This document shows, piece after piece, positions 28,140 through 44,717 of a stretch of DNA of 55,845 nt (positions are counted from its first letter, which is position 1; every line of letters begins with the position of its first letter). The notes under the pieces were generated by a model. That model was not told the DNA's origin, did not search any database, and saw only the letters and a list, made by a program, of their open reading frames with translations. The stretch is from Gammaproteobacteria bacterium (GTDB taxonomy: Bacteria > Pseudomonadota > Gammaproteobacteria > Ga0077536), in assembly GCA_030429865.1 (NCBI GenBank), contig JAUIFX010000004.1, forward strand, positions 1 through 55,845, read 5' to 3'. A program made the position numbers and the translations under genes.

Positions 28140-28877
28140 ATGCGACAGTTCCACGCCACGCTAATCGCCGCCGCTTTCTACGCCGGCGCAGCGCCTGCCG
28201 CCGTGATGCAGTACGGTGACAAGGACGTTCTCGGTTTCGGCAGCTACCCGACCGACCCGGTCACGGGCGCGACGCTCGAAGGCCTCGCGCCGGGCGTGTC
28301 GACGGTCGGCACCTACGGCCTCGGCGGCTTCAGCCACGCCTTCCCGTTCTCACCCGATCCCGGCGACTATGCCGGAACCGACCAGATTTACGTCGGCAGC
28401 GCCCAGAGCGGCAACGAGGACGGCTACTCCAGTTTCAGTGGCCGTCTCGCCGGTCCCCAGGTGGTGACGCTGGACTACGGCTCGTTGATCGGCGCCGGCC
28501 AGCAGCTCGCGACGCTGACGCTCGGCATCGCGTTCGACGACTTCCAGTTTCCGAACTTCGGCGAGCCTTACAGCGTGAGCATCAACGGCATTGCCGACAC
28601 CGCGCTGACCGCGTTCGCCAACAGCTTCAACCAGACCGGTCCGCGTGTCTCGTTCGGCACCATCGGCATCGATCCGGGCGTGCTCACGCCCGACCACGTC
28701 CTGGTGCTCGCCATCGACCAGGGCGGTAACGGTGGCGACGGCTGGGCGGTCGACTTTCTCACCGTGGGCGTGACCACGACGCCGGTGCCCCTGCCGGGAG
28801 CGTTGGTCCTGGCGGTCAGCGGAATCGCCGGCCTGCTCGGCTGGCGGCGGCGCGCCGTCGTCAGCACTTCCCTATAG
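28140..28877 (+). CDS. VPLP-type CTERM (PEP-CTERM-like) secreted protein
   Basis: A 245-residue exported protein. ATG 28140 has AGGGAAAA upstream. Signal peptide ATLIAAAFYAGAAPAAV. The C-terminal sorting signal is VPLPGALVLAVSGIAGLLGWRRR, the VPLPA variant of PEP-CTERM, recognised by exosortase and anchoring proteins to the envelope or exopolysaccharide. The mature part is acidic and Gly/Ser-rich with likely beta-sandwich fold (VTLDYGSLIGAGQQLATLTLGIAFDDFQF, HVLVLAIDQGGNGGDGWAVDF). Its stop codon overlaps by 6 bp the end of the convergent transporter gene. No function is evident beyond surface localisation. Confidence 0.85.
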   Translation: MRQFHATLIAAAFYAGAAPAAVMQYGDKDVLGFGSYPTDPVTGATLEGLAPGVSTVGTYGLGGFSHAFPFSPDPGDYAGTDQIYVGSAQSGNEDGYSSFSGRLAGPQVVTLDYGSLIGAGQQLATLTLGIAFDDFQFPNFGEPYSVSINGIADTALTAFANSFNQTGPRVSFGTIGIDPGVLTPDHVLVLAIDQGGNGGDGWAVDFLTVGVTTTPVPLPGALVLAVSGIAGLLGWRRRAVVSTSL

Positions 28878-30266
28878 CGGCACCCAGGTGACGATGATGC
28901 CGGTGTAGGTCGTCATCCACAGGAACGGGATGACCAGGTAGCCCATGACGTCGCGCGCCTGGATGCGCACACCGACCCCCATCACCGGCAGGATCGCGAG
29001 CAGGAAGAAGGGCTGCAGGAGGTTGCTCGACGTCTCGCCGTACGCGACGGCCATGGCGATGCGCGCGATGTAGGCCTGCGCCTCGTCGGCGGGCAGGTTG
29101 GCCGCGAGCGATTGCGCGGTGGCGGTCATCGACGGCCCGAGCACCGCCCATTCGCCGCCGGCCGAGGGAATCGCCATGTTGACCAGTGCACCGGACAATT
29201 GGGCGATGAACGGAAAGGTCGTGAGGCTGGCGTTGCCGGCCAGCCAGCCGGCCGTCGCCTCCGCGAGGCCGGTGAACATCATGATGCCCATGATGCCGGC
29301 GTAGAAGGGGTATTGGAAAATGATCCCCGAGACGTTCGCGCAGGCGCGTTTCATCGCGATGACGTAGCGGATCGGCGTGCGATGCATCAGCAGCCCGGCC
29401 TGCACGAAGACGAAGATCATGATGTTCAGGTTGAGATCGAAGCCGCGCGTGTAGAAGTAATCGATGATGTACCACCAGCCGGCCGCGCAGATAATCCACA
29501 CCAGCAGGCGGCTGTTGTTGAGGCGATCGGACAGCGCGTTGCCGTCGAGGTGCATCAGTCGCGCCTCCTCTTCGATCGGCACCGGCTCGACGGCTTCGGC
29601 CTCGCGCAGTTCCTCGATCGTCGCCGGGTTGCGGTCGCGCGGGCGCAGGAAGTAGAACAGCGCCGGCATGCTGAGAAAGAACACCGCCATCTGCACCTTG
29701 TTCATCGTGCTGCCGAGAGTCATGGCAATCGGCACGGTGCCGTCGAGCACGCCGGTCTCGATGAGAAAGTTGGCTTCGGTGTTCAAGACCAGCGGAATCG
29801 AACTCGACAGGCCGCACACCCAGGTCACGCCCGCGCCATAGGCGCAGGCCGTGAGATAGGCGTAGTCGACGCCGCGCACGCGCCCGGCGAGCTCGCGCGC
29901 GAGCACGGCCGTCAGCACCGCCCAGCCCCAGCTGACCAGGCCGAACAGGCCGCCGACGATGCCGACGATGAGGTAGACGCTGCCGGGGCCGCGCGCGAGT
30001 TTCGCCACGCGGTCGATGAGGCGCGCGATGGTCGGTGAGAGCGCGATGGCGAAACCCGTCGTCAGCAGCAGTACGACCTGCATGCCGAACTCGAGCAGGA
30101 TCCAGAATCCCTGGTACCAGCCATCGACGATCTGCTTCGGCGCGGCGTCGGCGCCGAGCCACGCGAGCAGCGCGACAAGCAGCGTCAGGAGCAGTGCGAA
30201 GACGAACGAATCAGGAATCAGGCGGCGCAGCGCCCGCGCCAGCACGGCGCCCATTTCTTGCAGCAC
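28872..30266 (-). CDS. atoE: short-chain fatty acid transporter (AtoE family)
   Basis: An inner-membrane permease of about 464 residues with 10-12 hydrophobic segments. Family features include IPDSFVFALLLTLLVALLAWLGA, WGWAVLTAVLARELA, SSSIPLVLN, LGSTMNKVQMAVFF, IPSAGGEWAVLGP and MAVAYGETSSNLLQPFF. AtoE imports acetoacetate, butyrate and similar acids. The GTG at 30266 has GGGGGA at 8 nt; ATG 30254 is the alternative. It follows meaB on the same strand after 140 bp. A short-chain acid importer next to a cobalamin acyl-CoA mutase suggests a shared carboxylic acid pathway, which is inference. Confidence 0.9.
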   Translation of the reverse strand: MLQEMGAVLARALRRLIPDSFVFALLLTLLVALLAWLGADAAPKQIVDGWYQGFWILLEFGMQVVLLLTTGFAIALSPTIARLIDRVAKLARGPGSVYLIVGIVGGLFGLVSWGWAVLTAVLARELAGRVRGVDYAYLTACAYGAGVTWVCGLSSSIPLVLNTEANFLIETGVLDGTVPIAMTLGSTMNKVQMAVFFLSMPALFYFLRPRDRNPATIEELREAEAVEPVPIEEEARLMHLDGNALSDRLNNSRLLVWIICAAGWWYIIDYFYTRGFDLNLNIMIFVFVQAGLLMHRTPIRYVIAMKRACANVSGIIFQYPFYAGIMGIMMFTGLAEATAGWLAGNASLTTFPFIAQLSGALVNMAIPSAGGEWAVLGPSMTATAQSLAANLPADEAQAYIARIAMAVAYGETSSNLLQPFFLLAILPVMGVGVRIQARDVMGYLVIPFLWMTTYTGIIVTWVPL

Positions 30267-30406: not shown

Positions 30407-31375
30407 TCAGGTCGAACGCAGGGCTGTCTCGATGGCGTCGCCGATCCGCGCGACCCGTACCAGCGGCGGCAGGTCGGCGACGGCGGCGAGGTGCGCGGCG
30501 AGACCTTCGGGGCCGCCGATCGCGGCGATGCCGAAGCTGCCGTAGCGTTGCAGCAGCTCGTTGCGCACGAAGCGCTCCTCGCCGGCGCGGCGGCGGGCGC
30601 GGCGCGCGTCCGGCGCGACCGCGTCGCGGTGGGCGAGGATGGTATCGACCAGGGCATCGATGCCGCGGTCTTCGCTTGCCGCGATCAGCAGTACCGGCGG
30701 CTGCCAGTCATCCGCGGCAACGGCGCCGAGGGCGAGTCCGCGCCGCAGCTCCTGCGCGGTGCGTTCGGCCGGCAGCCCGAGGTCGGCCTTGTTGACGGCG
30801 AACACGTCGGGCAGTTCGAGCACGCCGGCTTTCATGGTTTGCAGGATGTCGCCGGCGCCGGGTTGGGCAACGAACACCAGGGTATCGACGAGATCCGCGA
30901 CCTCGATCTCCGACTGGCCCACGCCGACCGTCTCGACGACGACCCAGTCATAGGCCGCGGCGAGAACGTCCAGACCGGCGCGCGTCGCCGCGGCGAGTCC
31001 GCCGAGGCGTCCGCGCGCGGCCATCGAGCGAAAGAACACCTGGTCGTCGCCGGCGGCGCGACCGGCGCGGATGCGATCGGCGAGCAGCGCGCCGCCGCTG
31101 TGCTGGCTGGAGGGATCGACGGCGATGATGCCGATGCTGCGTCCGCGCGCGCGCAGTGCCGCGACGAGGGCGTCGAGCAGGGTCGACTTGCCGGCACCCG
31201 GTGCGCCCGTGAGGCCGACACGAACGGTGTCCTCCCGCGCCCCGCGCGCGAGCTCGTCGAGCAGCGGTGCGGCGCGCTCGCGCGTGGCCCGGTCGCGCGC
31301 GTCGAGCAGGTTCAACGCGGTGGCGACGGCGGCACGCTCGCCGCGGCGGATACGCTCGAACAGTTCAGATGACAT
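30407..31375 (-). CDS. meaB: MeaB/ArgK-family GTPase (acyl-CoA mutase chaperone)
   Basis: A 322-residue G3E P-loop GTPase that guards adenosylcobalamin-dependent acyl-CoA mutases against inactivation and gates cofactor loading. Walker A GAPGAGKST at about residues 57-65, AVDPSSQHSGGALLADRIRA (switch I), VVVETVGVGQSEIEVAD (switch II and Mg2+ ligand) and VFAVNKADL (NKxD base specificity). It is divergent from the mutase genes across a 72-bp gap whose CTATAG core can be read as a -10 on both strands. No clear ribosome site precedes the ATG. Confidence 0.93.
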   Translation of the reverse strand: MSSELFERIRRGERAAVATALNLLDARDRATRERAAPLLDELARGAREDTVRVGLTGAPGAGKSTLLDALVAALRARGRSIGIIAVDPSSQHSGGALLADRIRAGRAAGDDQVFFRSMAARGRLGGLAAATRAGLDVLAAAYDWVVVETVGVGQSEIEVADLVDTLVFVAQPGAGDILQTMKAGVLELPDVFAVNKADLGLPAERTAQELRRGLALGAVAADDWQPPVLLIAASEDRGIDALVDTILAHRDAVAPDARRARRRAGEERFVRNELLQRYGSFGIAAIGGPEGLAAHLAAVADLPPLVRVARIGDAIETALRST

Positions 31376-31447: not shown

Positions 31448-33049
31448 ATGAATCATCGCATGACGCAGTCGGGGATCCCGCTCGAGCCGTTCTACACCGC
31501 CGCGCACGTTGCCGGAGAGGTGGCGGACCGGGGGGAGGTGCCCGGCGAGTATCCGTTCACGCGCGGCCGGCTGGCAAGTCCGCGCCGGCGCGAGGCCTGG
31601 ATTCAGCAGGAACTGTCCGGGGAGGGCACGGCGCGGCGTTCGAACGAACAGTTCCGCCAGCTCATCGCGCGCGGCGCGCGCGGCATCGACGTCATCGGCG
31701 ATGCGCCGACGATGTCGGCGCTCGACCCGGATCACCCGCTCGCGCGCCATGCCGTCGGCAATACCGGCGTGTCGCTGTGCCGCCTGCAGGACTTCGAGGA
31801 ACTGTACGCCGACCTGCCGCTCGACGAGCTGACCGTGTCGCACTCGCTGCCGCCCGGGGCCTACGCCATCGCCGCGCTGCATCGCGTGTCTGCACGACGC
31901 GGCTTCGCGCCCTCGGCGCTGCGCGGATCGACCATCCTGCTGCCCGCCTACTGCGAGGACTGCAGTTACCAGATCCACATGCCCTACGAGCTGCGCATGC
32001 GGCTCGCGCTCGATTCCATCGAGTTCGCCGCGCGCGAGATGCCGCGCTTCCACGCCTTTCTCGAAGACACCTATTACATCAGCGACGGCGGCCTCGATGC
32101 GGTGGAGGAAATGGCCCTCGGCTTCGTCGAGATCCGCGAAATCGTGCGGCGGCTCGTCGCGCGCGGGGTCGACATCGACAGCTTCGCGCCGCGCATCGCC
32201 ATCCTCGTCAACTGCCGCATGGATTTCTTCGAGGAGATCGCGAAGATCCGGGCCACGCGGCGCATTTTCGCGCGCATGATGCGCGAAGAGTTCGGCGCCA
32301 GGGATCCACGCTCGTGGTCATGCGCGATCACGGCGCACACCTCGGGACTTTCGCTGACCCTCGCGCAGCCGGCCAACAACGTCGCGCGGGGTGCGCTGCA
32401 GGGCCTCGCGCTCGCGCTCGCCGGCGTGCAGGCGGTCGAAATCTCGTGCTTCGACGAGGCCTACCGCACGCCCAGCCACGACGCCCACATGGTCAGCCTG
32501 CGCACGCAGCAGATCGTGCAACTCGAGGCGGGCGCCGATCGCGTCGCCGATCCGCTTGGCGGTTCGTATTACGTCGAATCGCTGACCGACGAGATGGAGT
32601 CGCGCATTCTCGCGATGGTCGGGAAGATCGAGTCGATGGGCGAACTCGGCGAACTGTGCGACGGCGGCTGGTTTCGCGAGCTGTTCCAGGACGCGATGAC
32701 GCGGCGCGCACGCGCCATCGAAGACAAGAGCGAAATCCAGGTCGGCGTCAACGCGTTCCAGGTTGCCGAGGAAGAGGACACGCTGCTGCGCGCGGCCAGC
32801 GAGTCGAAGCTCGAACCTTGCCGCGAGCGCATCGACGAGATCCGGTTTTTCAAGGAGCAGCGCGACCGCGCGCGCGTGGGCGAGCACTTCGCGCGCCTGC
32901 GCGAGGCGGCGGCAGCACCGGCCAACCTGCTGCCGGCGATCGGTGACGCGCTGGAAGCGGAACTCACCCAGGGCGAGATCTCGGGCGCGCTGCGCCTCGG
33001 TGTCGGTGCCCCCTACGATCCGCTCGGCATGATGGAGCCGCCGCTGTGA
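31448..33049 (+). CDS. adenosylcobalamin-dependent acyl-CoA mutase, large subunit, divergent
   Basis: A 533-residue TIM-barrel subunit of the methylmalonyl-CoA mutase superfamily. YPFTRG (35-40) and SLPPGAYA, SLTLAQPANNVARGALQGLALALAGVQAVEISCFDEAY and DPLGGSYYVESLTDEME are clear. Lined up without gaps against methylmalonyl-CoA mutase (Propionibacterium numbering, from memory), the pocket residues differ: R82 is E49, R87 is Q54, Y89 is L56, Q197 is I163, R207 is S173, N236 is H202, and the catalytic H244 is Y210. The substrate is therefore probably not methylmalonyl-CoA. The B12-binding domain is separate and encoded next, overlapping by 4 nt. A second start at 31460 is possible. Confidence 0.85.
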   Translation: MNHRMTQSGIPLEPFYTAAHVAGEVADRGEVPGEYPFTRGRLASPRRREAWIQQELSGEGTARRSNEQFRQLIARGARGIDVIGDAPTMSALDPDHPLARHAVGNTGVSLCRLQDFEELYADLPLDELTVSHSLPPGAYAIAALHRVSARRGFAPSALRGSTILLPAYCEDCSYQIHMPYELRMRLALDSIEFAAREMPRFHAFLEDTYYISDGGLDAVEEMALGFVEIREIVRRLVARGVDIDSFAPRIAILVNCRMDFFEEIAKIRATRRIFARMMREEFGARDPRSWSCAITAHTSGLSLTLAQPANNVARGALQGLALALAGVQAVEISCFDEAYRTPSHDAHMVSLRTQQIVQLEAGADRVADPLGGSYYVESLTDEMESRILAMVGKIESMGELGELCDGGWFRELFQDAMTRRARAIEDKSEIQVGVNAFQVAEEEDTLLRAASESKLEPCRERIDEIRFFKEQRDRARVGEHFARLREAAAAPANLLPAIGDALEAELTQGEISGALRLGVGAPYDPLGMMEPPL

Positions 33050-33456
33050 GCGAACGCCCCCTGCGCATCCTGCTGTCGATACTCGGGCTCGATCAACACG
33101 AGGCAGGCGCCTTCGCGGTCGCGCGCCTGCTGCGCGATGCCGGCATGGAAGTGGTCTACCTCGGCCGCTTCGGTACGCCTGAACGCATCGTCGATGCCGC
33201 GCTCGAGGAAGGCGTCGACGTGATCGGGCTGTCGTGCCATTCCTGGGAGTACCTCTACTATCTCGATGAATTGTTCGAGCTGCTCGCCGCCCGTGGGCTC
33301 GACCTGCCGGTCGTCGTCGGGGGCTCGGTGCTGAGCGGCGACGACAAGCGTGAGATCGAAGCCAGGGGCGTCGCCGCGACGTTTGGGCCGGGCGCCGGCG
33401 CAGAGGAGATCGTCGCGCGCATCCGCGAGCTGACGGCGACCCGCGGCGCGGCGTGA
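33046..33456 (+). CDS. cobalamin-binding small subunit of acyl-CoA mutase
   Basis: A 136-residue Rossmann-type B12-binding domain. The lower-ligand motif DxHxxG is present in LDQHEAGAFAVARLL, so base-off/His-on cobalamin binding is expected. LSCHSWEYLYYLDELF and VVGGSVLSGDDKREIEARGVAATFGPG complete the nucleotide-loop pocket. The GTG start at 33046 overlaps the large-subunit stop (GTGA), indicating equimolar coupled translation. Together with the large subunit and MeaB it forms a split holo-mutase, like 2-hydroxyisobutyryl- or isobutyryl-CoA mutases in layout. hypD begins 75 nt later. Confidence 0.9.
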   Translation: MSERPLRILLSILGLDQHEAGAFAVARLLRDAGMEVVYLGRFGTPERIVDAALEEGVDVIGLSCHSWEYLYYLDELFELLAARGLDLPVVVGGSVLSGDDKREIEARGVAATFGPGAGAEEIVARIRELTATRGAA

Positions 33457-33531
33457 GCTTCGCGTGAGCGACACGCCGGGCCCGCGTGCATCGCTGCCAT
33501 CGTGCGGCCCCGGCCGCGCACGTGGATGGCA

Positions 33532-34620
<1,089 letters not shown>

Positions 34621-34646
34621 GCGGCGCCGCGTGTCGCGCGCGTCGA

Positions 34647-34676
34647 TTGTTCCGCCGTCCGGCAGACTGCTAGCAT
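34647..34676 (+). promoter_or_regulatory. promoter of the methyltransferase-hypE unit
   Basis: TTGTTC (34647-34652), 18-bp spacer, extended -10 TGCTAGCAT (hexamer 34671-34676), 92 nt before the ATG at 34769. It lies between hypD and the methyltransferase gene. Confidence 0.5.
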
Positions 34677-34768
34677 CGACCGCCTGCGCTGCCCGCACGG
34701 GCACGCCCCCGACATCTGCGCGGCGGCCCCGAGACGGGCGGCGCCCGCCAAGGACGAGGACACCGACC

Positions 34769-35635
34769 ATGAACCTACGCAATCTTCTCGGCGCCTGCTG
34801 CGGCGCCGCCCTGCTGATCGGCGCCGGCGCGCCGGCGGCACTTGCGCAAGACGCCGCGGCGCGTCTCGACGCCGTGCTCGCCGCGCAGCCCGACGAGGTC
34901 AAGGCGCGCTATGGCGCGCGCCATCCGCGCGAGACGCTCGGCTTCTTCGGCATCGAGCCCGGCATGACCGTCTACGAGGCGCTGCCCGGCGGCGGCTGGT
35001 ATTCGAAGATCCTGCTCGATTACCTCGGCGCCGACGGCAAGCTGGTCGGCATCGATTACGCCTATGCCATGTACCCCATGTTCAACTTCTACGACGAGGC
35101 CTACCTCGAGGCGAAGAAGACCTGGACGACGAGCTGGCCGGAGCAGGCGCTCGAGTGGCGGGACGCGGACGACGCCGCGGTGGGCGCATTCCTGTTCGGC
35201 TCGATGCCGGACGCGATGGCGGGACAGGCCGATGCCGTGCTGCTCGTGCGCGCGCTGCACAACCTGGCGCGCTTCGAGGACAAGGGCGGCTACCTGACCA
35301 CCGCGCTGGCCGATATCCACCGCGCGCTCAAGCCGGGCGGCGTGGTCGGCGTGGTTCAGCACCGCGCACCCGAGGACGCCGACGACGCCTGGGCCGACGG
35401 CAGTAACGGCTACCTCAAGCAGAGCTTCGTCGTGGCGCGCTTCGAGGCCGCCGGCTTCGAACTCGTCGGCGAGAGCGCGGTCAACCGCAACCCGGCCGAC
35501 CAGCCCGGTCCCACCGACTACGTGTGGCGCCTGCCGCCCACGCTGCACCTCAACGCGGACAACGAAGCGCAGCGTGCGGACTACGTCGCGATCGGCGAAT
35601 CCGATCGCATGACGTTGCTGTTCCGCAAGCGCTGA
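34769..35635 (+). CDS. exported class I SAM-dependent methyltransferase-like protein
   Basis: A 288-residue protein with a signal peptide (LLGACCGAALLIGAGAPAALAQD). The body shows a methyltransferase fold: GMTVYEALPGGGWYSKILLDYLGADGKLVGIDY (glycine-rich motif I and acidic motif II), ADAVLLVRALHNLARF, and the end of the fold with GFELVGESAVNRN. It resembles the predicted methyltransferases of COG4798, which are exported. Because SAM is cytosolic, an exported enzyme of this fold is puzzling. It lies between hypD and hypE, 7 nt before hypE, so it is co-transcribed with the hydrogenase maturation genes. Confidence 0.82.
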   Translation: MNLRNLLGACCGAALLIGAGAPAALAQDAAARLDAVLAAQPDEVKARYGARHPRETLGFFGIEPGMTVYEALPGGGWYSKILLDYLGADGKLVGIDYAYAMYPMFNFYDEAYLEAKKTWTTSWPEQALEWRDADDAAVGAFLFGSMPDAMAGQADAVLLVRALHNLARFEDKGGYLTTALADIHRALKPGGVVGVVQHRAPEDADDAWADGSNGYLKQSFVVARFEAAGFELVGESAVNRNPADQPGPTDYVWRLPPTLHLNADNEAQRADYVAIGESDRMTLLFRKR

Positions 35636-35641
35636 GGCGCG

Positions 35642-36697
35642 ATGGCCGCGCAGGAACCGCCCGGCGCCTGGTGTCCGCTGCCGTTCGCGGACGGCGCGCA
35701 GGTGCAGCTCGCCCATGGCGGCGGGGGGCGGCTCGGTCTCGACCTCGTCGAGCGCCTGTTCCGTCCCGCCTTTACCAATCCCTGGCTCGACGCCGCGCAC
35801 GACGGTGCGGTGCTCGACCTCGGCACGGCGCGTATTGCATTCACCACCGACAGCTACGTCGTGCGCCCGTTGTTCTTTCCCGGCGGCGATATCGGCACCC
35901 TGGCCATTCACGGCACGGTCAACGATCTCGCCATGTGCGGCGCGCGGCCGCGCCACCTGAGCGCCGGCTTCATCCTCGAGGAGGGCTTCCCGCTCGCCGA
36001 TCTCGAAGCGATCGTGGGTTCGATGCGCGCGGCGGCGCAGCGCGCCGGCGTAACGCTCGTCACCGGCGACACCAAGGTGGTCGAACGCGGCCGCGGCGAC
36101 GGGCTCTACGTCAACACGGCCGGCGTCGGGCTGATCGAGCACGGGCTGACGATCGGGCCGGCCGCCGTGCGGGCGGGGGACGTGCTGCTGGTCAGCGGCG
36201 ACCTCGGACGCCACGGCATCGCGGTGATGGCGGCGCGCGAAGACCTCGATTTCACGCCGCCGGTGACGAGCGACTGCGCACCGCTCGCCGACGCCGTCGG
36301 CGCCATGCTCGCTCGCGGCCTGCCACTGCGCTGCCTGCGTGACCTGACCCGCGGCGGGCTCGCCGCGGCGTTGGTCGAGATCGCCCGCGCCGCCGGCTGC
36401 GCACTGCACGTCGAGCGCCGCGCGGTGCCGGTGGCCGACAACGTCGCCGGTGCCTGTGAACTGCTCGGCCTCGACCCGCTGTTCGTCGCCAACGAAGGGC
36501 GTATGCTGGTCGTCGTGCCCGGGGACGCGGCGCAGGCGGCCCTGGCCTGCCTGCGAGAGTGCGAAGTCGGCGCCGGCGCCGTGCAGGTCGGCAACGTCAG
36601 CAGCGGTCCCGCGGGGCAGGTCACCGTGGCCTCGGAGATCGGCACCGTGCGCAAGCTCGAATTACCGAGCGGCGAGCAGTTGCCGCGGATCTGCTGA
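35642..36697 (+). CDS. hypE: hydrogenase expression/formation protein HypE
   Basis: A 351-residue AIR-synthase-fold enzyme that dehydrates the S-carboxamide made by HypF to a thiocyanate, the cyanide source for the iron centre. AHGGGGRLGLDLVERLFRPAF, FTTDSYVVRPLFFPGGDIG, GTVNDLAMCGARP, TGDTKVV and LRDLTRGGLAAAL are family motifs. The C-terminus ends PRIC, with the terminal Cys that carries the carboxamide. The ATG is 7 nt after the methyltransferase stop. Confidence 0.97.
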   Translation: MAAQEPPGAWCPLPFADGAQVQLAHGGGGRLGLDLVERLFRPAFTNPWLDAAHDGAVLDLGTARIAFTTDSYVVRPLFFPGGDIGTLAIHGTVNDLAMCGARPRHLSAGFILEEGFPLADLEAIVGSMRAAAQRAGVTLVTGDTKVVERGRGDGLYVNTAGVGLIEHGLTIGPAAVRAGDVLLVSGDLGRHGIAVMAAREDLDFTPPVTSDCAPLADAVGAMLARGLPLRCLRDLTRGGLAAALVEIARAAGCALHVERRAVPVADNVAGACELLGLDPLFVANEGRMLVVVPGDAAQAALACLRECEVGAGAVQVGNVSSGPAGQVTVASEIGTVRKLELPSGEQLPRIC

Positions 36698-36751
36698 CGG
36701 CGCCGGGCGCCGCGTTCGCGCAACGCGTCGAGGATCGGTAATCCCGATCAA

Positions 36752-36779
36752 TTCACGCGGCGGCGGCGTTCGCTAGACT
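36752..36779 (+). promoter_or_regulatory. promoter of the hydrogenase structural operon
   Basis: TTCACG (36752-36757), 16-bp spacer, TAGACT (36774-36779). The -10 ends 6 nt before the ATG of the beta subunit, so the mRNA may be leaderless. Confidence 0.45.
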
Positions 36780-36785
36780 AGCGTC

Positions 36786-37933
<1,148 letters not shown>

Positions 37934-37937
<4 letters not shown>

Positions 37938-38455
37938 CGATGGAGATCCACGACCTCGAGAACTACCTCGCCCATCACCCGTTCTTCGCCGGCCTGGCGC
38001 CCGAGTACCTCGCGCTGCTCACGGGTTGCGCGGGCAACGTCACGTTCGCTGCCGGCGAGACCGTCTTCAGCCAGGGCGGAACGGCCGAGCACTTCTACCT
38101 CCTGCGCGACGGCCGCGTCGCGCTCGAGTTCCCGCACCCGGCCGGCAACGGCGTGGTCATCGACACGCTCGACGCGGGTGACGTGCTCGGCGCGTCGTGG
38201 CTGGTTGCCCCGTATCGCTGGCCCTACGATGCCCGCGCGCTCGCACCGACGCGCGCGCTGGCGCTCGATGCCGTGTGCCTGCGCGGCAAGTGCGATGCCG
38301 ATCCCGCGCTCGGTTTCGACCTCTCGCGACGTTTCGCCGCCGTCATCGTCGAACGTCTGCATGCGGCGGAGCTGCGCCTGACCGACATGTACGCCAATCC
38401 CGCCTCCGATGTCTCCGACGCGGCTGTCGCTGCCGGCGCCGGCGGGGCTGCCTGA
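37934..38455 (+). CDS. cyclic nucleotide-binding domain protein
   Basis: A 173-residue protein with a CAP-like effector domain: [48 protein letters not shown] and [21 protein letters not shown]. There is no DNA-binding helix-turn-helix after the dimer helix ([17 protein letters not shown]), so it is not a classical transcription factor. Genes of this kind are found inside group 3b hydrogenase operons in many bacteria, suggesting a regulatory or redox-sensing subunit. The ligand is unknown. The phosphate-binding Arg of cAMP pockets is not obvious. Translationally coupled to the beta subunit. Confidence 0.88.
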
Positions 38456-38456
38456 C

Positions 38457-39323
38457 GTGGCGGTGCCGGGGGCGCCGGCCGATTCGTACGGCGGGTCGAG
38501 GCCGGACCCGATGCTGCCGCGCGTGTTCACCGTCGCCGCGCGGCACGAGGAGACGGCCGATACGTTCACGCTCGAACTGCTGGCGGAGGATGCGGCCGAT
38601 CTCGCGTTTGCGCCCGGGCAGTTCAACATGCTCTACGCATTCGGGCGCGGCGAGAGCGCGATTTCGATCAGCGGCGACGCCGCCGAGCCGCAGCGGCTCG
38701 TGCACACGATCCGGGCGGTGGGCACGGTCACCCGGGCGCTCGCCGAACTCGCGCCGGGCGCACAGCTCGGCGTGCGTGGGCCTTACGGCACGGCCTGGCC
38801 GCTGGCTGCCGCGCGCGGACGCGATGTCGTCTTCGTCGCCGGCGGTATCGGTCTCGCGCCGTTGCGCCCGGCCATCCTAGAAGTCCTCGCGGCGCGCCGC
38901 GACTACGGCCGCGTGGTGCTGCTCTACGGTGCGCGCACGCCCGGTGACGTCCTCTACGCCGCGGAGATCGCGCGCTGGCGTGCGCGCGGTGACATCGAGA
39001 TCCATGTCACGGTCGACGCCGCGGGCAGCGACTGGCGTGGCAACGTCGGCGTCGTGACGCAGCTCGTGCGCCGCGCCGGCTTCGATGCCGCGCATGCGCT
39101 CGCCATGCTGTGTGGACCCGAGATCATGATGCGTTACACCGTCGTCGAGCTCGGCCGTGCCGGCATGTCGCCGAACGACGTGCACGTCTCGCTCGAGCGC
39201 AACATGAAGTGCGCGATCGCGTTCTGCGGCCACTGCCAGTACGGTCCCGAGTTCATCTGCCGCGACGGGCCGGTGTTTCCCTATGATCGCGTCGCGCGCT
39301 GGTTCGACGCGCGCGAGCTGTGA
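38457..39323 (+). CDS. hydG: hydrogenase gamma subunit, FAD/NAD(P)-binding oxidoreductase
   Basis: A 288-residue diaphorase subunit that exchanges electrons with NAD(P)H. The FAD-binding barrel has [23 protein letters not shown], the NAD(P) domain has [18 protein letters not shown] and [16 protein letters not shown], and a C-terminal [2Fe-2S] site has [23 protein letters not shown] (C-x4-C-x2-C-x8-C). The GTG at 38457 begins 1 nt after the cNMP gene stop. ATG 38409 (overlapping) and ATG 38511 (nearer the conserved PRVFTV) are alternatives. The domain order matches group 3b HydG, not the [FeFe] maturase of the same name. Confidence 0.92.
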
Positions 39324-39330
39324 GGTGACG

Positions 39331-40131
39331 ATGAGCGAGGCGCATTCCCGACCCAAGCTCGCGGTATGGAAGTTCGCTTCCTGCGACGGCTGCCAGCTTT
39401 CCTTGCTCGACTGCGAGGACGAGCTGCTCGCCGTCGCCGAGGCAATCGAGATCGCGAACTTCCCCGAGGCCTCGCGCGCCGTCGTCGCGGGTCCGTACGA
39501 CCTCTCGCTGGTCGAGGGCTCGATCACCACGCCGCACGATGCCGAGCGCATCCGCGACATCCGCGCGCAATCGAAGACGCTCGTCACCATCGGCGCCTGC
39601 GCCACGGCCGGCGGCATCCAGGCGCTGCGCAACTTCGCCGACGTCGAGGCGTTCACGCGTATCGTCTACGCCCGTCCCGAGTACATCGCGACGCTGGCCG
39701 AGTCGACCGCGATCGCCGATCACGTCGCGGTCGACTTCGAACTGCGCGGCTGTCCGATCAGCAAGACCCAGCTGCTCGAAGTGATCAGCGCCTTCCTCGC
39801 CGGCCGCCGCCCGGTGACGCCGGCGCACAGCGTGTGCGTGGAATGCAAGCTGCGTGGCACGGTGTGCGTGATGGTGGCCCAAGGTACACCCTGCCTGGGT
39901 CCGGCCACGCATGCCGGTTGCGGCGCCATCTGTCCGGCCTACGATCGCGGCTGCTACGGCTGTTTCGGCCCGATGGAAACGCCGAACCCCGCCGCGCTCG
40001 ACGCCCGCTGGGGCGAGCTGGGTGCCGATCGCGCGCGGCGCGAGCGGGTCTACCGCACCTTCAACGCGGGCGCGCCGGCGTTTCGCGAGGCGGCGGCGCG
40101 CATCGCGGCCGCGGACGAGGAGGAATCGTGA
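39331..40131 (+). CDS. hydD: hydrogenase small (delta) subunit
   Basis: A 266-residue iron-sulfur subunit. The proximal-cluster motif is near the start ([18 protein letters not shown]), then [15 protein letters not shown] and [13 protein letters not shown]. Two further clusters are held by [21 protein letters not shown] and [21 protein letters not shown]. No Tat signal is present, so the enzyme is cytoplasmic, as expected for group 3. ATG 39331 has GAGGTGA 4 nt upstream. Its stop overlaps the alpha subunit GTG. Confidence 0.95.
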
Positions 40132-41417
40132 GCACCCGGACGATCAAGGTCGACTACCTCGCGCGCGTCGAGGGCGAGGGCGCGATGCACGTGACGGTCG
40201 AAGCAGGCCGCGTGAGTCGCTGTGAGCTGCGCATCTTCGAGCCGCCGCGCTTTTTCGAAGCGTTCCTGCGCGGGCGCGAATACGCCGAGGCGCCGGACAT
40301 CACGGCGCGCATCTGCGGCATCTGTCCCATCGCCTACCAGATGAGCGCAGTGCACGCGATGGAGGACATCTTCGGCGTCCGCGTCGGCGGTCCGCTGCGC
40401 GCGCTGCGCCGCCTGATCTATTGCGGCGAGTGGATCGAAAGCCACGTACTGCACATCTACATGCTGCACGCGCCGGACTTTATCGGTTACGAGAGTGCGA
40501 TCGAGATGGCGCGCGACCACCCGGAGCTCGTACGCCAGGGCTTGCGCCTGAAGAAGATCGGCAACGATCTCATGACCCTCGTCGGCGGCCGCGAGATCCA
40601 CCCCATCAACGTGCGCGTCGGCGGCTTTTACCGCGTGCCGCGGCGGCATGAACTCGAGACCTTGCGCGCCGATCTCGAATGGGGCATGAAGGCGGCGGAG
40701 GATACGGTGCACTGGGCCGCGGGCCTCGCGTTTCCCGACTTCGAGCAGGACTACGAGTTCGTCGCGCTGCGTCACCCGCACGAGTACCCGTTCAACGAGG
40801 GACGCCTGGTGTCGAGCGCGGGGCTCGACATTCCCGTCAACGCGTTCGACGAGCACTTCGAAGAGATCCACGTGCCGCACTCGACCTCGCTGCACGCCAG
40901 GCTGCGCGCCCGCGGCAATTATTTCGTTGGCCCGCTGGCGCGCTACAACCTCAACTTCGATCGCCTCTCGCCGCGGGTGCAGGCCGCGGCGCGGGCGGCG
41001 GGCATCGCCGGCGGCTGCCGCAACCCGTTCCAGAGCATCGTGGTACGCGCGCTCGAAGTGCTGCATGCCTACGAGGAAGCGCTCGCGATCATCGATGCCT
41101 ACGTCGAGCCCGAGGCGCCGGTCATCGACTACGAGGTGCGCGCGGGGACCGGCCACGGCTGCACCGAGGCGCCGCGCGGGATCTGTTACCACCGCTACAC
41201 CGTCGGTGCGGACGGGCTCATCGGCGACGCGGTGATCGTGCCGCCGACGTCGCAGAACCAGCCGACCATCGAGAACGACCTGCGCGGCTTCGTCGAGCGC
41301 CATCTCGACGAAGACGACGAGCGGCTGCAGTGGCTGTGCGAGCAGGCCATCCGCAACTACGATCCGTGTATCTCCTGCTCGTGCCACTTTCTGAACCTGA
41401 CCGTGGAGCGGCGCTGA
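40128..41417 (+). CDS. hydA: [NiFe]-hydrogenase large (alpha) subunit, group 3b type
   Basis: A 429-residue catalytic subunit. The L1 motif RICGIC is near residue 65 in [22 protein letters not shown]. The L2 motif is DPCISCSCH near the C-terminus, so all four nickel-ligand cysteines are present. About nine residues (FLNLTVERR) follow the His and would be removed by the protease encoded next. Start GTG 40128 overlaps the delta stop and has GGAGGA upstream. A longer frame upstream runs through the delta gene and is not used. Clade by memory of motif pattern ([23 protein letters not shown]): NAD(P)-coupled group 3b. Confidence 0.96.
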
Positions 41418-41420
41418 GTC

Positions 41421-41891
41421 ATGACAAGCACCCTGTGCCTCGGCATCGGCAACCGTTTCCGGCGCGACGACGGCGCCGGTCCGGCACTGGCCGCCGCGCT
41501 TGCCGCGCGCGCCTTGCCGGACGTCTCGGTGGATACGCAGAGCGGTGAAGGTGCGGGACTGGTGGAAGCGTTCGCGCGCGCGCCGCGCGTGCTGGTGTTC
41601 GACGCCGTCGCTTCCGGCGCCGCGCCGGGTACCGTGCACCGCATCGATGCGCACGCGGCGAACGTCCCGCGGGGATTCTTCGCCTACTCGACGCACGCTT
41701 TCAGCCTCGCCGAAGCCATCGAACTCGCGCGTGCCCTCGACGCCTTGCCGCGGGAGCTGCTCGTCTACGGCATCGAGGGCGCGGATTTCGCCAGCGGCGA
41801 AGGGCTGAGCCCGGCGGTTGCGGCGTCGGTCGAGGCGCTCGCGGACGAACTGGCGGCGACTCTCGGCAACGGAGCGCCGGCCCATGCATGA
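41421..41891 (+). CDS. hydrogenase maturation endopeptidase
   Basis: A 156-residue HyaD/HybD-type protease that cuts the C-terminal extension of the large subunit after nickel insertion. GNRFRRDDGAG carries the first nickel-sensing acidic residue, VFDAVASGAAPG the second, and YSTHAFSL the conserved His. The start lies 3 nt after the alpha stop. Its end overlaps the HypA-like gene by 8 nt. It has a little longer C-terminus (GAPAHA) than E. coli HycI, with no consequence seen. Confidence 0.93.
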   Translation: MTSTLCLGIGNRFRRDDGAGPALAAALAARALPDVSVDTQSGEGAGLVEAFARAPRVLVFDAVASGAAPGTVHRIDAHAANVPRGFFAYSTHAFSLAEAIELARALDALPRELLVYGIEGADFASGEGLSPAVAASVEALADELAATLGNGAPAHA

Positions 41892-42147
41892 GGCGAGCCT
41901 GATGCGCGGGTTGATGACGCAGATCGAGCAGGTGATCGAGGCCAACGGGGGCCGTCGCGCGGTCGCCATCGAAGTCTGGCTGGGCGCGCTGTCACACATG
42001 TCGCCGGCACATTTCGAGGCGCATTTCGCGAGCGCGTCACCCGGCACCCGGGCTGCCGGGGCACGGCTCGTCATCGAGACCTCCGACGATGTCGGGCATC
42101 CGCAGGCGCTCGACGTCGTGCTCAAGACCGTCGAGGTCGAGACCTGA
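41884..42147 (+). CDS. hypA: HypA-like nickel insertion protein lacking the zinc domain
   Basis: An 87-residue protein that starts MHEASLMRGLM, with the nickel-binding His2 and the N-terminal HypA fold (EVWLGALSHMSPAHFEAHF, GARLVIETS). Normal HypA has about 115 residues and, after the equivalent of GARL, a zinc finger with two C-x2-C pairs. Here that segment is replaced by a short loop (DDVGHPQALD) and the protein contains no Cys at all. The remainder VVLKTVEVET resembles the final strand. The ATG overlaps the protease stop. It may still bind nickel but cannot hold zinc in the usual way. Confidence 0.8.
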   Translation: MHEASLMRGLMTQIEQVIEANGGRRAVAIEVWLGALSHMSPAHFEAHFASASPGTRAAGARLVIETSDDVGHPQALDVVLKTVEVET

Positions 42148-42148
42148 C

Positions 42149-44446
42149 GTGGGCGCCCTGCCGGCAACGGTGCGGGCGTCCGGGGCGGCGTGGTCGCTGC
42201 GCCTGCACGGCGTCGTGCAGGGCGTCGGCCTGCGCCCGTTCGTGCTGCGCGAGGCGCGCGCGCTGGGACTCACGGGGCGCGTGCTGAACGACGGCGCCGG
42301 GGTCGTCATCGAGGTCGAAGGCGAGGCGGCAGCGCTGGCACGCTTCGCCGAGCGCGTCGTGACGGCGGCACCGCCGCAGGCGCGCATCGATGCCGTCGCG
42401 CGCACGCCGCTCACGCCGCGCGGGTACGACGCGTTCGTCATCGAACCGAGCGCGGACAGCGGGCACGGCACGCTGCCGTCGCCCGACCTCGTCATGTGCG
42501 AGGCGTGCCGCGCCGAGATTGCCGATCCGGGCGCGCGGCGCTACCGCTACCCGTTCACGAGCTGCACCCGCTGCGGGCCGCGCTACAGCATCACGCGTGC
42601 GCTCCCGTTCGACCGCGCCAACACCGCCATGGATGCCTTCCCGCCGTGCGCGGCGTGCCGCGCGGAGTACGCCGACCCGGACGATCGCCGCTGCCACGCG
42701 CAGACCCTGGCCTGCCCGGCATGCGGGCCGCGCCTGCTGCTCGGCGATGCCGCCGGCGAGGTGCAGGCCGAGGGGACCGCAGCGCTCGACGGCGCCATCG
42801 CGGCACTCGCGGCCGGGCGCATTGTCGCGGTCAAGGGGCTCGGCGGCTTCCAGCTCGTGGTGCGGGCCGACCGGGCGGCCGCGGTATCGCGCCTGCGCGC
42901 GCGCAAGGCCCGCGGCGGCAAGCCGTTCGCGGTGATGGTGCGCGACCTGGCCGCCGCCGCGCACGAGGTGAGGCTGGAGACGGCGGCGCGCGAGCTGCTC
43001 GCCGGCCCGGCTGGTCCCATCGTGATCCTGCCGCGATCGGGCAAGGGCCGCGCCGTCGCCGCCTGCGCGCCCGGCTGCCCCGATCTCGGCGTGATGCTGC
43101 CGACGACACCCCTGCACCAGCTGCTGCTCGACGGCGTCGGCGCGCCGCTGGTCGTGACGAGCGGCAACCGCGCGGGCGAACCGCTGTGCCGCGACGGCAG
43201 CGAGGCGCGCACCCGGCTCGGCGCGATCGCGGACCTGTTCCTCGACCACGATCGCGCCATCGAACAGCCGCTCGATGACTCGGTCGTGCGCCTCGATGGC
43301 ACGCGCCTGCTGATGCTGCGCCGCGCGCGCGGCTACGCGCCGCTGCCGCTCGAGCTGCCCGGGGACACGCCCGCCGCCGGCGTGCGCGCGGCGATACTTG
43401 CGTGCGGCGCGCAGGCGAAGAGCGTGGCCGCGGTGACCTCGGGTTCAGTTGCGTGGCTCGGACCCTACCTGGGCGACCTGGACGATACGCTCGCTGAGCG
43501 GCGCTACCGCGCCGGCATTGCCGCGCTCGAACGCCTCGCCGGCGTGGTGCCGCGCGTGGTCGCCCACGACGTGCACGGCGATTACACCAGCACGCGCCAG
43601 GCGCTGACACGGGCGGGGCGCCATGTCGCCGTCCAGCACCACCATGCGCACATCGCCGCCTGCATGGCCGAGCACGGCCTCGCCGGGCGCGTGCTCGGTA
43701 TCGCCTGGGACGGCAGCGGCGACGGCGGCGACGGCACCGTGTGGGGCGGTGAATGCCTCGATGCCGGGTATACCGATGCCGTGCGCGTGGCGACCCTCGT
43801 GCCGTTCCGGCTCGCCGGCGGCGAGGCGGCGGTGCGCGACCCGCGGCGCGTGGCGCTCGCGCTCCTTGCTGCGGGCGGGCGCGAGGAAGACGCTGCTATG
43901 CTCGGCTTTGCGCCGGATACGCGGGCCAATCTGCTGCGCATGATCACGCGCGGGCTGCACGCACCGCCGACGACCAGCGTCGGAAGGCTGTTCGACGGCG
44001 TCAGCGCGCTGCTCGGACTGTGTCATGTCGCGGACTACGAAGGCGAGGCGGCGATGCGCCTGGAATGGGCCGCGCGCCGCGCGAGCCTGCCGGCAGGCGG
44101 TTACCCGCTGCCGCTCGATGTCGGCGCCACGCCGTGGCGGCTCGACTGGCGCGCCTTGCTCGCGGCGCTGCTCGCCGATCGGGCGGCCGGCGTCGCCATC
44201 GAGGACATGGCGGCACGCTTTCACCTCGCGCTCGCCGAGGCCGTGCTCGCCGTCGCCACGCGCGCGGGGCACGCAACGGTGTGCCTGTCCGGCGGCTGTT
44301 TCCAGAACGTGCTGCTCGTACGCCTCGTGCGCGAGCGGCTCGAGCAGGCGGGTTTCCGCGTCCTGACACACGAGCGGTTGCCGCCCAACGACGGCGGCCT
44401 GGCACTCGGCCAGGCCGTGGTCGCGGCGCACCGGGCAGCGGGCTGA
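42149..44446 (+). CDS. hypF: carbamoyltransferase HypF
   Basis: A 765-residue multidomain enzyme that converts carbamoyl phosphate and ATP to the carbamoyl group loaded on HypE. The N-terminal acylphosphatase domain has VVQGVGLRPFVLREA; two zinc fingers follow (CEACRAEI...CTRCGPRYSIT and CAACRAEY...CPACGP), then a YrdC-like domain (GRIVAVKGLGGFQLV, TSGNRAGEPLC) and the Kae1-like domain (HHHAHIAACMAEHGL, CLSGGCFQNVLL, NDGGLALGQA). The GTG at 42149 starts 1 nt after the HypA-like stop. Full length. Confidence 0.97.
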   Translation: MGALPATVRASGAAWSLRLHGVVQGVGLRPFVLREARALGLTGRVLNDGAGVVIEVEGEAAALARFAERVVTAAPPQARIDAVARTPLTPRGYDAFVIEPSADSGHGTLPSPDLVMCEACRAEIADPGARRYRYPFTSCTRCGPRYSITRALPFDRANTAMDAFPPCAACRAEYADPDDRRCHAQTLACPACGPRLLLGDAAGEVQAEGTAALDGAIAALAAGRIVAVKGLGGFQLVVRADRAAAVSRLRARKARGGKPFAVMVRDLAAAAHEVRLETAARELLAGPAGPIVILPRSGKGRAVAACAPGCPDLGVMLPTTPLHQLLLDGVGAPLVVTSGNRAGEPLCRDGSEARTRLGAIADLFLDHDRAIEQPLDDSVVRLDGTRLLMLRRARGYAPLPLELPGDTPAAGVRAAILACGAQAKSVAAVTSGSVAWLGPYLGDLDDTLAERRYRAGIAALERLAGVVPRVVAHDVHGDYTSTRQALTRAGRHVAVQHHHAHIAACMAEHGLAGRVLGIAWDGSGDGGDGTVWGGECLDAGYTDAVRVATLVPFRLAGGEAAVRDPRRVALALLAAGGREEDAAMLGFAPDTRANLLRMITRGLHAPPTTSVGRLFDGVSALLGLCHVADYEGEAAMRLEWAARRASLPAGGYPLPLDVGATPWRLDWRALLAALLADRAAGVAIEDMAARFHLALAEAVLAVATRAGHATVCLSGGCFQNVLLVRLVRERLEQAGFRVLTHERLPPNDGGLALGQAVVAAHRAAG

Positions 44447-44450
44447 CGCC

Positions 44451-44717
44451 ATGTGCCTCGCCGTTCCCGGACGCATCGTCGCGATTACCGACACCGATCC
44501 GCTCACGCGCGCCGGGCAGGTCGCCTTCGGCGGCGTCGCCAAGAGCGTCAACCTCGCGTTCGTGCCGGAAGCGCAGGTCGATGACTACGTCGTCGTCCAC
44601 GCCGGTTTCGCCATCAGCGTGCTCGACCGTGCGGAGGCCGCGCGCACCCTGGCGACCTTGCGCGAGCTCGATGCCGGCGGACTCGCGGCGCTCGGCGGGG
44701 ACGACGACGCGTCCTGA
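44451..44717 (+). CDS. hypC: hydrogenase assembly chaperone HypC
   Basis: An 88-residue OB-fold chaperone that carries the Fe(CN)2CO unit with HypD to the large subunit. The start MCLAVPGRIV gives the essential Cys2 after Met removal. DYVVVHAGFAISVLDRAEA is the usual C-terminal half. It begins 4 nt after hypF. It closes the locus; hypB, the nickel GTPase, is absent here. Confidence 0.97.
   Translation: MCLAVPGRIVAITDTDPLTRAGQVAFGGVAKSVNLAFVPEAQVDDYVVVHAGFAISVLDRAEAARTLATLRELDAGGLAALGGDDDAS

Follow-up and report, generated by a model that had tools for sequence, protein, structure and literature searches.

A two-subunit cobalamin-dependent acyl-CoA mutase with a remodelled active site from a putative new subfamily

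The window (the whole stretch of 55,845 nucleotides analysed) encodes a two-subunit mutase whose large subunit (L) belongs to a conserved clade with a remodelled active site. We interpret the protein pair as a working adenosylcobalamin-dependent carbon-skeleton mutase that acts on an acyl-CoA and belongs to an undescribed subfamily; most likely, it would convert a branched 2-hydroxyacyl-CoA and a 3-hydroxyacyl-CoA into each other. We give this interpretation an even chance of being right. To our knowledge, only few acyl-CoA mutase specificities are known. The genes and codons concerned are listed below, with the corresponding positions of methylmalonyl-CoA mutase (MCM) in brackets.

28872-30254, minus strand: AtoE-like short-chain fatty acid transporter, 460 aa from the preferred ATG (PF02667, 3.3e-100)
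30407-31375, minus strand: MeaB-type G-protein chaperone, 322 aa (PF03308, 4.8e-77), divergent from the L gene
31448-33049, plus strand: mutase large subunit L, TIM barrel (PF01642), 533 aa, assigned by Pfam and NCBIfam profiles and PDB matches
31688-31690, plus strand: codon for D81 (MCM S114), Asp in 100% of the clade
32051-32053, plus strand: codon for H202 (MCM N236), His in 100% of the clade
32072-32077, plus strand: codons for Y209-Y210 (MCM Y243-H244), Y243 retained, position 244 Phe in 68% and Tyr in 31% of the clade
32336-32338, plus strand: codon for H297 (MCM Q330), His in 100% of the clade
33046-33456, plus strand: mutase small subunit S, B12-binding (PF02310), 136 aa, assigned by profiles, closest PDB chain 4r3u_C
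33091-33108, plus strand: codons for DQHEAG, the cobalamin-coordinating DxHxxG motif, Q and E clade-specific

The start of the S gene overlaps the end of the L gene by 4 bp, and 72 bp separate the L gene from the divergent MeaB gene. Both subunits match their Pfam families (L: PF01642, 5.7e-128, 428 bits against a cut-off of 22.1; S: PF02310, 3.5e-21, 75.7 bits against 32.1), and MeaB reaches 243.5 bits with the NCBIfam profile TIGR00750, just above the cut-off of 240.75. The initial annotation of this DNA had placed MeaB next to the mutase and had noted an intact DxHxxG motif in the B12 subunit; both observations hold. The AtoE-like gene lies downstream of the MeaB gene, its ORF possibly starting from 30344, and its tie to the mutase is positional only. 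The remaining neighbour is an apparently unrelated [NiFe]-hydrogenase operon (33526-44717) directly downstream of the S gene, with hypD, hypE and sulfhydrogenase-type beta and gamma subunits. Further ORFs of this region resemble the remaining hydrogenase structural and maturation genes, and a methyltransferase-like ORF (34769-35635) sits between hypD and hypE. A functional tie between this operon and the mutase was rejected, since the 97% sister (L034) has the operon and the 80% relative (L035) lacks it. At 28140-28877 the window encodes a secreted protein of 245 aa with a C-terminal PEP-CTERM-like sorting signal (VPLPGALVLAVSGIAGLLGWRRR). The same genome encodes a second split mutase on contig C273 and an IcmF-like mutase on contig C38, so that the window mutase is not the housekeeping copy; contig C218 carries another MeaB together with a B12 subunit.

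Active-site residues were assigned from PDB alignments with human and P. shermanii MCM and with the 2-hydroxyisobutyryl-CoA mutase (HCM) 4r3u, using P. shermanii numbering. The seven replacements named initially (R82E, R87Q, Y89L, Q197I, R207S, N236H and H244Y) are correct against these references. The alignment to MCM is not free of gaps, as had been stated, but contains a small indel between positions 195 and 207, owing to which R207 falls on S in some aligner runs and on D in others, and Q197 is less secure. Furthermore, S114D, F117G, H328T, Q330H and N366S were detected, and Y243 and E370 of MCM are retained. Clade-wide changes relative to MCM are S114D, F117G, H328T/A, Q330H, N366S and F287L. 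The residues D114, H236, H330, Y243, E370 and L89 are fixed in all 51 clade sequences, which have Phe (68%) or Tyr (31%) at position 244. R82 varies within the clade and Arg87 is present in 90% of the relatives, indicating that R82E and R87Q are local to the branch of the window. The other replacements in the substrate pocket are fixed clade-wide; these two are not features of the family.

As predicted from the alignments, the pocket is one without the carboxylate clamp (Y89, R207) and without the contact of His244 to the thioester carbonyl, with D114, H236 and H330 instead. These three residues might form a new contact to a hydroxyl group and keep the thioester carbonyl in place. With Y89 and R207 lost, a malonyl-type substrate carrying a free carboxylate is unlikely.

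A scan of GTDB species genomes together with blastp yielded at least about 50 clade loci or species genomes from several phyla, at 51-97% identity. Among the matches listed there is a sharp gap below 51%, the next match being at 40% identity, and the hosts comprise Deltaproteobacteria/Myxococcota, Rokubacteria, Desulfobacteraceae, Acidobacteriota/Holophagales, Alpha-, Beta- and Gammaproteobacteria as well as Chloroflexota. Cultured hosts are Desulfotruncus alcoholivorax, Actinoplanes subtropicus and Novosphingobium sp. B1. A class-wide draw of 369 genomes yielded a clade member in the own genome only, and thus the clade is sparse among relatives; none was found in viral contigs. In maximum-likelihood trees (quick searches with SH-aLRT support, without bootstrap) the clade forms one branch with a long stem (SH-aLRT 100), separate from MCM, ICM, IcmF, classical HCM and the HCMs with Asn244 described below. 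Compared with the 97% homologue, the dN/dS ratio was 0.06; with the 80% homologue it was 0.14. These low ratios and the fixation of the other substitutions over at least about 50 species genomes indicate that the replacements are more than chance. No description of the clade was found in the open PMC literature, where the matches were papers on HCM, acetone, Lcm engineering and IaaGH; its novelty is provisional.

The S subunit of the window carries the motif as LDQHEAG. In the 44 clade S sequences compared, the usual KxGxDGHDRG has become xxGxDQHExG, with Gly replaced by Gln and Asp by Glu in 100% and the preceding Lys mostly by a hydrophobic residue. In MCM this Lys is part of the Co-His-Asp-Lys chain. 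Since S shows clade-invariant changes matching those of L, both subunits diverged together. The loss of most textbook active-site residues might also mean that the protein resembles a mutase but is inactive or regulatory, comparable to the beta subunit of heterodimeric MCM. This is very improbable, because the protein has its own B12 subunit with DxHxxG, retains E370 and Y243, is accompanied by MeaB at several loci and keeps the same pocket, under strong purifying selection, throughout the clade; moreover, a profile search of the window contig found no second PF01642 gene that could encode an alpha-type partner. Purifying selection, cobalamin motif, MeaB and E370/Y243 together make the pair look active, as had been predicted.

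The window pair has the motifs of the superfamily (DxHxxG, Y243, E370) and is nevertheless distinct from the known mutases, as had been suggested: by residues and tree it is neither MCM, ICM, IcmF nor classical HCM. With MCM, L shares the barrel fold, Y243, E370, S164 and R283 at 29-31% identity. Instead of the MCM signature Y89, R207 and H244, the first two of which bind the carboxylate, it has L, S/D and Y, the S subunit is unfused, and with 307 bits L stays below the cut-off of 876 bits of the MCM equivalog PRK09426 (NCBIfam). IcmAB is split like the window mutase and ICM also has a G-protein partner, but the ICM signature F89, Q207 and H244 is absent from L, as is the fusion of the IcmF type, and the clades are separate. 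The benzylmalonyl-CoA mutase IaaGH of indoleacetate degradation is a split B12 mutase in an acyl-CoA pathway, too, and hydantoinase-like genes near a few clade members (L060, L063, L073) are a further resemblance. Compared by gene set and hosts, clade loci have no iaa gene set, and none of the known iaa organisms is among the clade matches. Another genome (G418; L161, L162) carries an Asn244 mutase clustered with two hydantoinase A/B-like pairs, ligases and a molybdenum-hydroxylase-like gene, a cluster that could serve indoleacetate-type degradation; a search with this mutase returned mostly classical HCMs.

HcmAB of Aquincola tertiaricarbonis (PDB 4r3u) is the best match in sequence and fold. 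An AlphaFold2 model of L built with 50 related sequences (mean pLDDT 90.3, pTM 0.91) had 4r3u as best PDB fold (Foldseek, TM 0.86, 32% identity), and among solved proteins the subunits of this enzyme are closest to L and S. Split subunits, an aliphatic residue at position 89 (Ile there, Leu here and in the acetone-type mutases) and the ligase/MeaB context are shared, and the combination of ligase, mutase, MeaB and SDR resembles the hcl-hcmAB-meaH and acetone clusters (PMC7176365, PMC7888143). The clade might accordingly be a divergent HCM proper that converts the HcmAB/RcmAB substrate with an independent pocket solution. We regard this as unlikely. At 33% identity, the window mutase lacks D116, Q207, H244, Q197, N236 and Q330 of HcmAB; within the clade D116 is Ile, Q207 Ser/Gly and H244 Phe/Tyr. 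The HcmA-type signature (I89, D116, Q207, H244 and grouping with 4r3u) is thus absent from L, and the clade groups with neither HCM lineage.

His244 commonly counts among the core catalytic residues, and HCMs had initially been said to keep it. This is not the case for the acetone-induced HCMs of sulfate reducers. The acetone-induced cluster of Desulfotomaculum arcticum comprises a thiolase, an enoyl-CoA hydratase, a dehydratase, mutase S and L, a Xaa-Pro aminopeptidase and a threonine dehydrogenase (PMC8084838). We found this order in genome G413 (L163) and the D. geothermicum version in G412 (L164), the L subunits being 84% identical, which matches PMC8084838; the D. cetonica-type order L-S-MeaB-SDR (PMC7888143) was found at L191. 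All three mutases, assigned to D. arcticum, D. geothermicum and the D. cetonica type by gene order and in the first two cases also by identity, have Asn at position 244. Counting relatives of these sulfate-reducer HCMs, Asn244 occurs at L163, L164, L166, L169, L171-L177 and L191. According to a passage of PMC7888143, which cites Frey et al. 2018, the D. biacutus homologue was confirmed as HCM with the heterologous enzyme. In D. cetonica and D. biacutus the analogous mutase and then an SDR-type 3-hydroxybutyryl-CoA dehydrogenase follow in sequence (PMC7888143). As these HCMs have Asn244, a missing His244 alone implies no exotic reaction.

The acetone-type HCMs resemble the clade in the replacement of His244, in Leu89, in the cluster of L, S, MeaB and SDR and in an SDR-type 3-hydroxyacyl-CoA dehydrogenase after the mutase. 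They differ from it by retaining Q197, N236, H328, Q330 and T85, are only 30-34% identical, form a separate clade, and their genes cluster with a ThDP enzyme, not with an acyl-CoA ligase of the clade type. Window L lacks the sulfate-reducer signature, i.e. N244 and grouping with the acetone-cluster enzymes. That the clade represents the Desulfotruncus acetone pathway was rejected, because in that family only D. alcoholivorax has a clade member and the acetone-cluster mutases form a different lineage. A mutase type with His243 and Asn244 is encoded at L107:9953-11596 and L110:3159-4802, at L107 beside acyl-CoA dehydrogenase, HMG-CoA-synthase-like and thiolase-like genes; its identification as the D. 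biacutus acetone mutase was rejected, since neither a ThDP enzyme nor an SDR adjoins.

Within 9 kb of the mutase, the 51 clade loci contain SDR (21 loci), crotonase (17), acyl-CoA ligase (16), MeaB (8) and acyl-CoA dehydrogenase (5) genes; these are raw counts, and as the SDR, crotonase and ligase families are common, fusions and 4-bp overlaps weigh most. The SDR lies within the same-strand run of the mutase in 12 of the 51 loci; at L036 and L038 its gene and the L gene share 4 bp. Recurring orders are SDR-mutL-mutS (L036, L038, L042, L084) and mutL-mutS-crotonase-ligase-SDR (L061, L070), besides mutL-mutS-crotonase-ligase-MeaB (L077) and mutL-mutS-MeaB (L058). In Actinoplanes (L060, 11545-12843; PF02310 and PF00106) the B12 subunit and the SDR form a single polypeptide, and the same fusion occurs in Streptosporangiaceae (L063, 11857-13281); no mention of a B12-domain/SDR fusion was found in the open PMC literature. 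SCP2-type thiolases are present at L035, L053 and L061. A non-CoA substrate, which had been considered initially, is unlikely and an acyl-CoA likely, because the mutases of the relatives sit with acyl-CoA ligase, enoyl-CoA hydratase, SDR and sometimes thiolase. The gene neighbours in relatives suggest a role in branched-acid breakdown. Neither the window genome nor its sister has a ligase or an SDR closely orthologous to those of the relatives, and therefore this context applies only indirectly to the window.

The recurrent SDR partner makes the interconversion of 2-hydroxyacyl-CoA and 3-hydroxyacyl-CoA the likeliest reaction. The S subunit would bind cobalamin through DxHxxG, and MeaB would load the cofactor on S and protect it. 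An acyl-CoA provided by a ligase or another route would enter the L barrel where, following the chemistry of the family, the 5'-deoxyadenosyl radical would abstract a hydrogen and the thioester carbonyl would shift to the neighbouring carbon. The product 3-hydroxyacyl-CoA would be oxidised by the SDR to 3-oxoacyl-CoA, followed by thiolysis. Such a scheme would follow the pattern by which 2-hydroxyisobutyrate or acetone is degraded, with a related or different substrate. Against the hydroxyacyl reading speak the replacement of the hydroxyl-binding Asp116 of HCM by Ile in window L and an identity of only about 30-34% between the clade and any HCM. Alternatively it might be that the mutase acts on a non-hydroxylated branched or bulky (alkyl- or aryl-branched) acyl-CoA and that SDR, hydratase and thiolase serve later beta-oxidation. 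Hydrophobic residues at positions 89, 197, 244 and 287, small ones at 117 and 207, acyl-CoA dehydrogenase and enoyl-CoA hydratase genes near L061, L053 and L077, and TonB-type and branched-chain ABC transporters at some loci would fit such a substrate. We see a rather small chance for it: acyl-CoA dehydrogenase genes occur near 5 of the 51 loci and SDR genes near 21, in two of them fused to the B12 subunit, and the three new polar invariants D114, H236 and H330 suggest that the pocket accommodates a polar group.

Other unusual mutases were encountered, too. Deltaproteobacterial loci L082, L085, L086 and L087 represent a second group, with Asp244 and His330, in which several L genes stand in tandem, accompanied by ABC transporter and acyl-CoA dehydrogenase genes. 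The second split mutase of the window genome (L001, G000:C273:30978-32453) has kept Y89, R207 and H244 and has Ala243, Val330 and Gly328; these residues are conserved in several genera of the same family (L009, L010, L012, L014). This type possibly acts on a larger malonyl-type substrate.

What makes the clade interesting is above all its remodelled active site, the fusion to an SDR and what it tells about His244. Tentatively, and at less than even chances, it may be seen as a new functional class, defined by the absence of the His244 contact, the set of Asp114, His236 and His330, a re-tuned cobalamin site (Lys604 lost, DQHExG), a substrate new to mutases and channelling by SDR fusion in actinobacteria. 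A broad conserved lineage in which this residue and the carboxylate clamp are replaced, together with the Asn244 HCMs of sulfate reducers, indicates that His244 is no requirement of mutase chemistry. The automated annotation of clade genes as methylmalonyl-CoA mutase is probably wrong, and the clade offers new scaffolds for mutase engineering. It points to an unrecognised route of branched-acid degradation in soil, sediment, groundwater and sponge bacteria.
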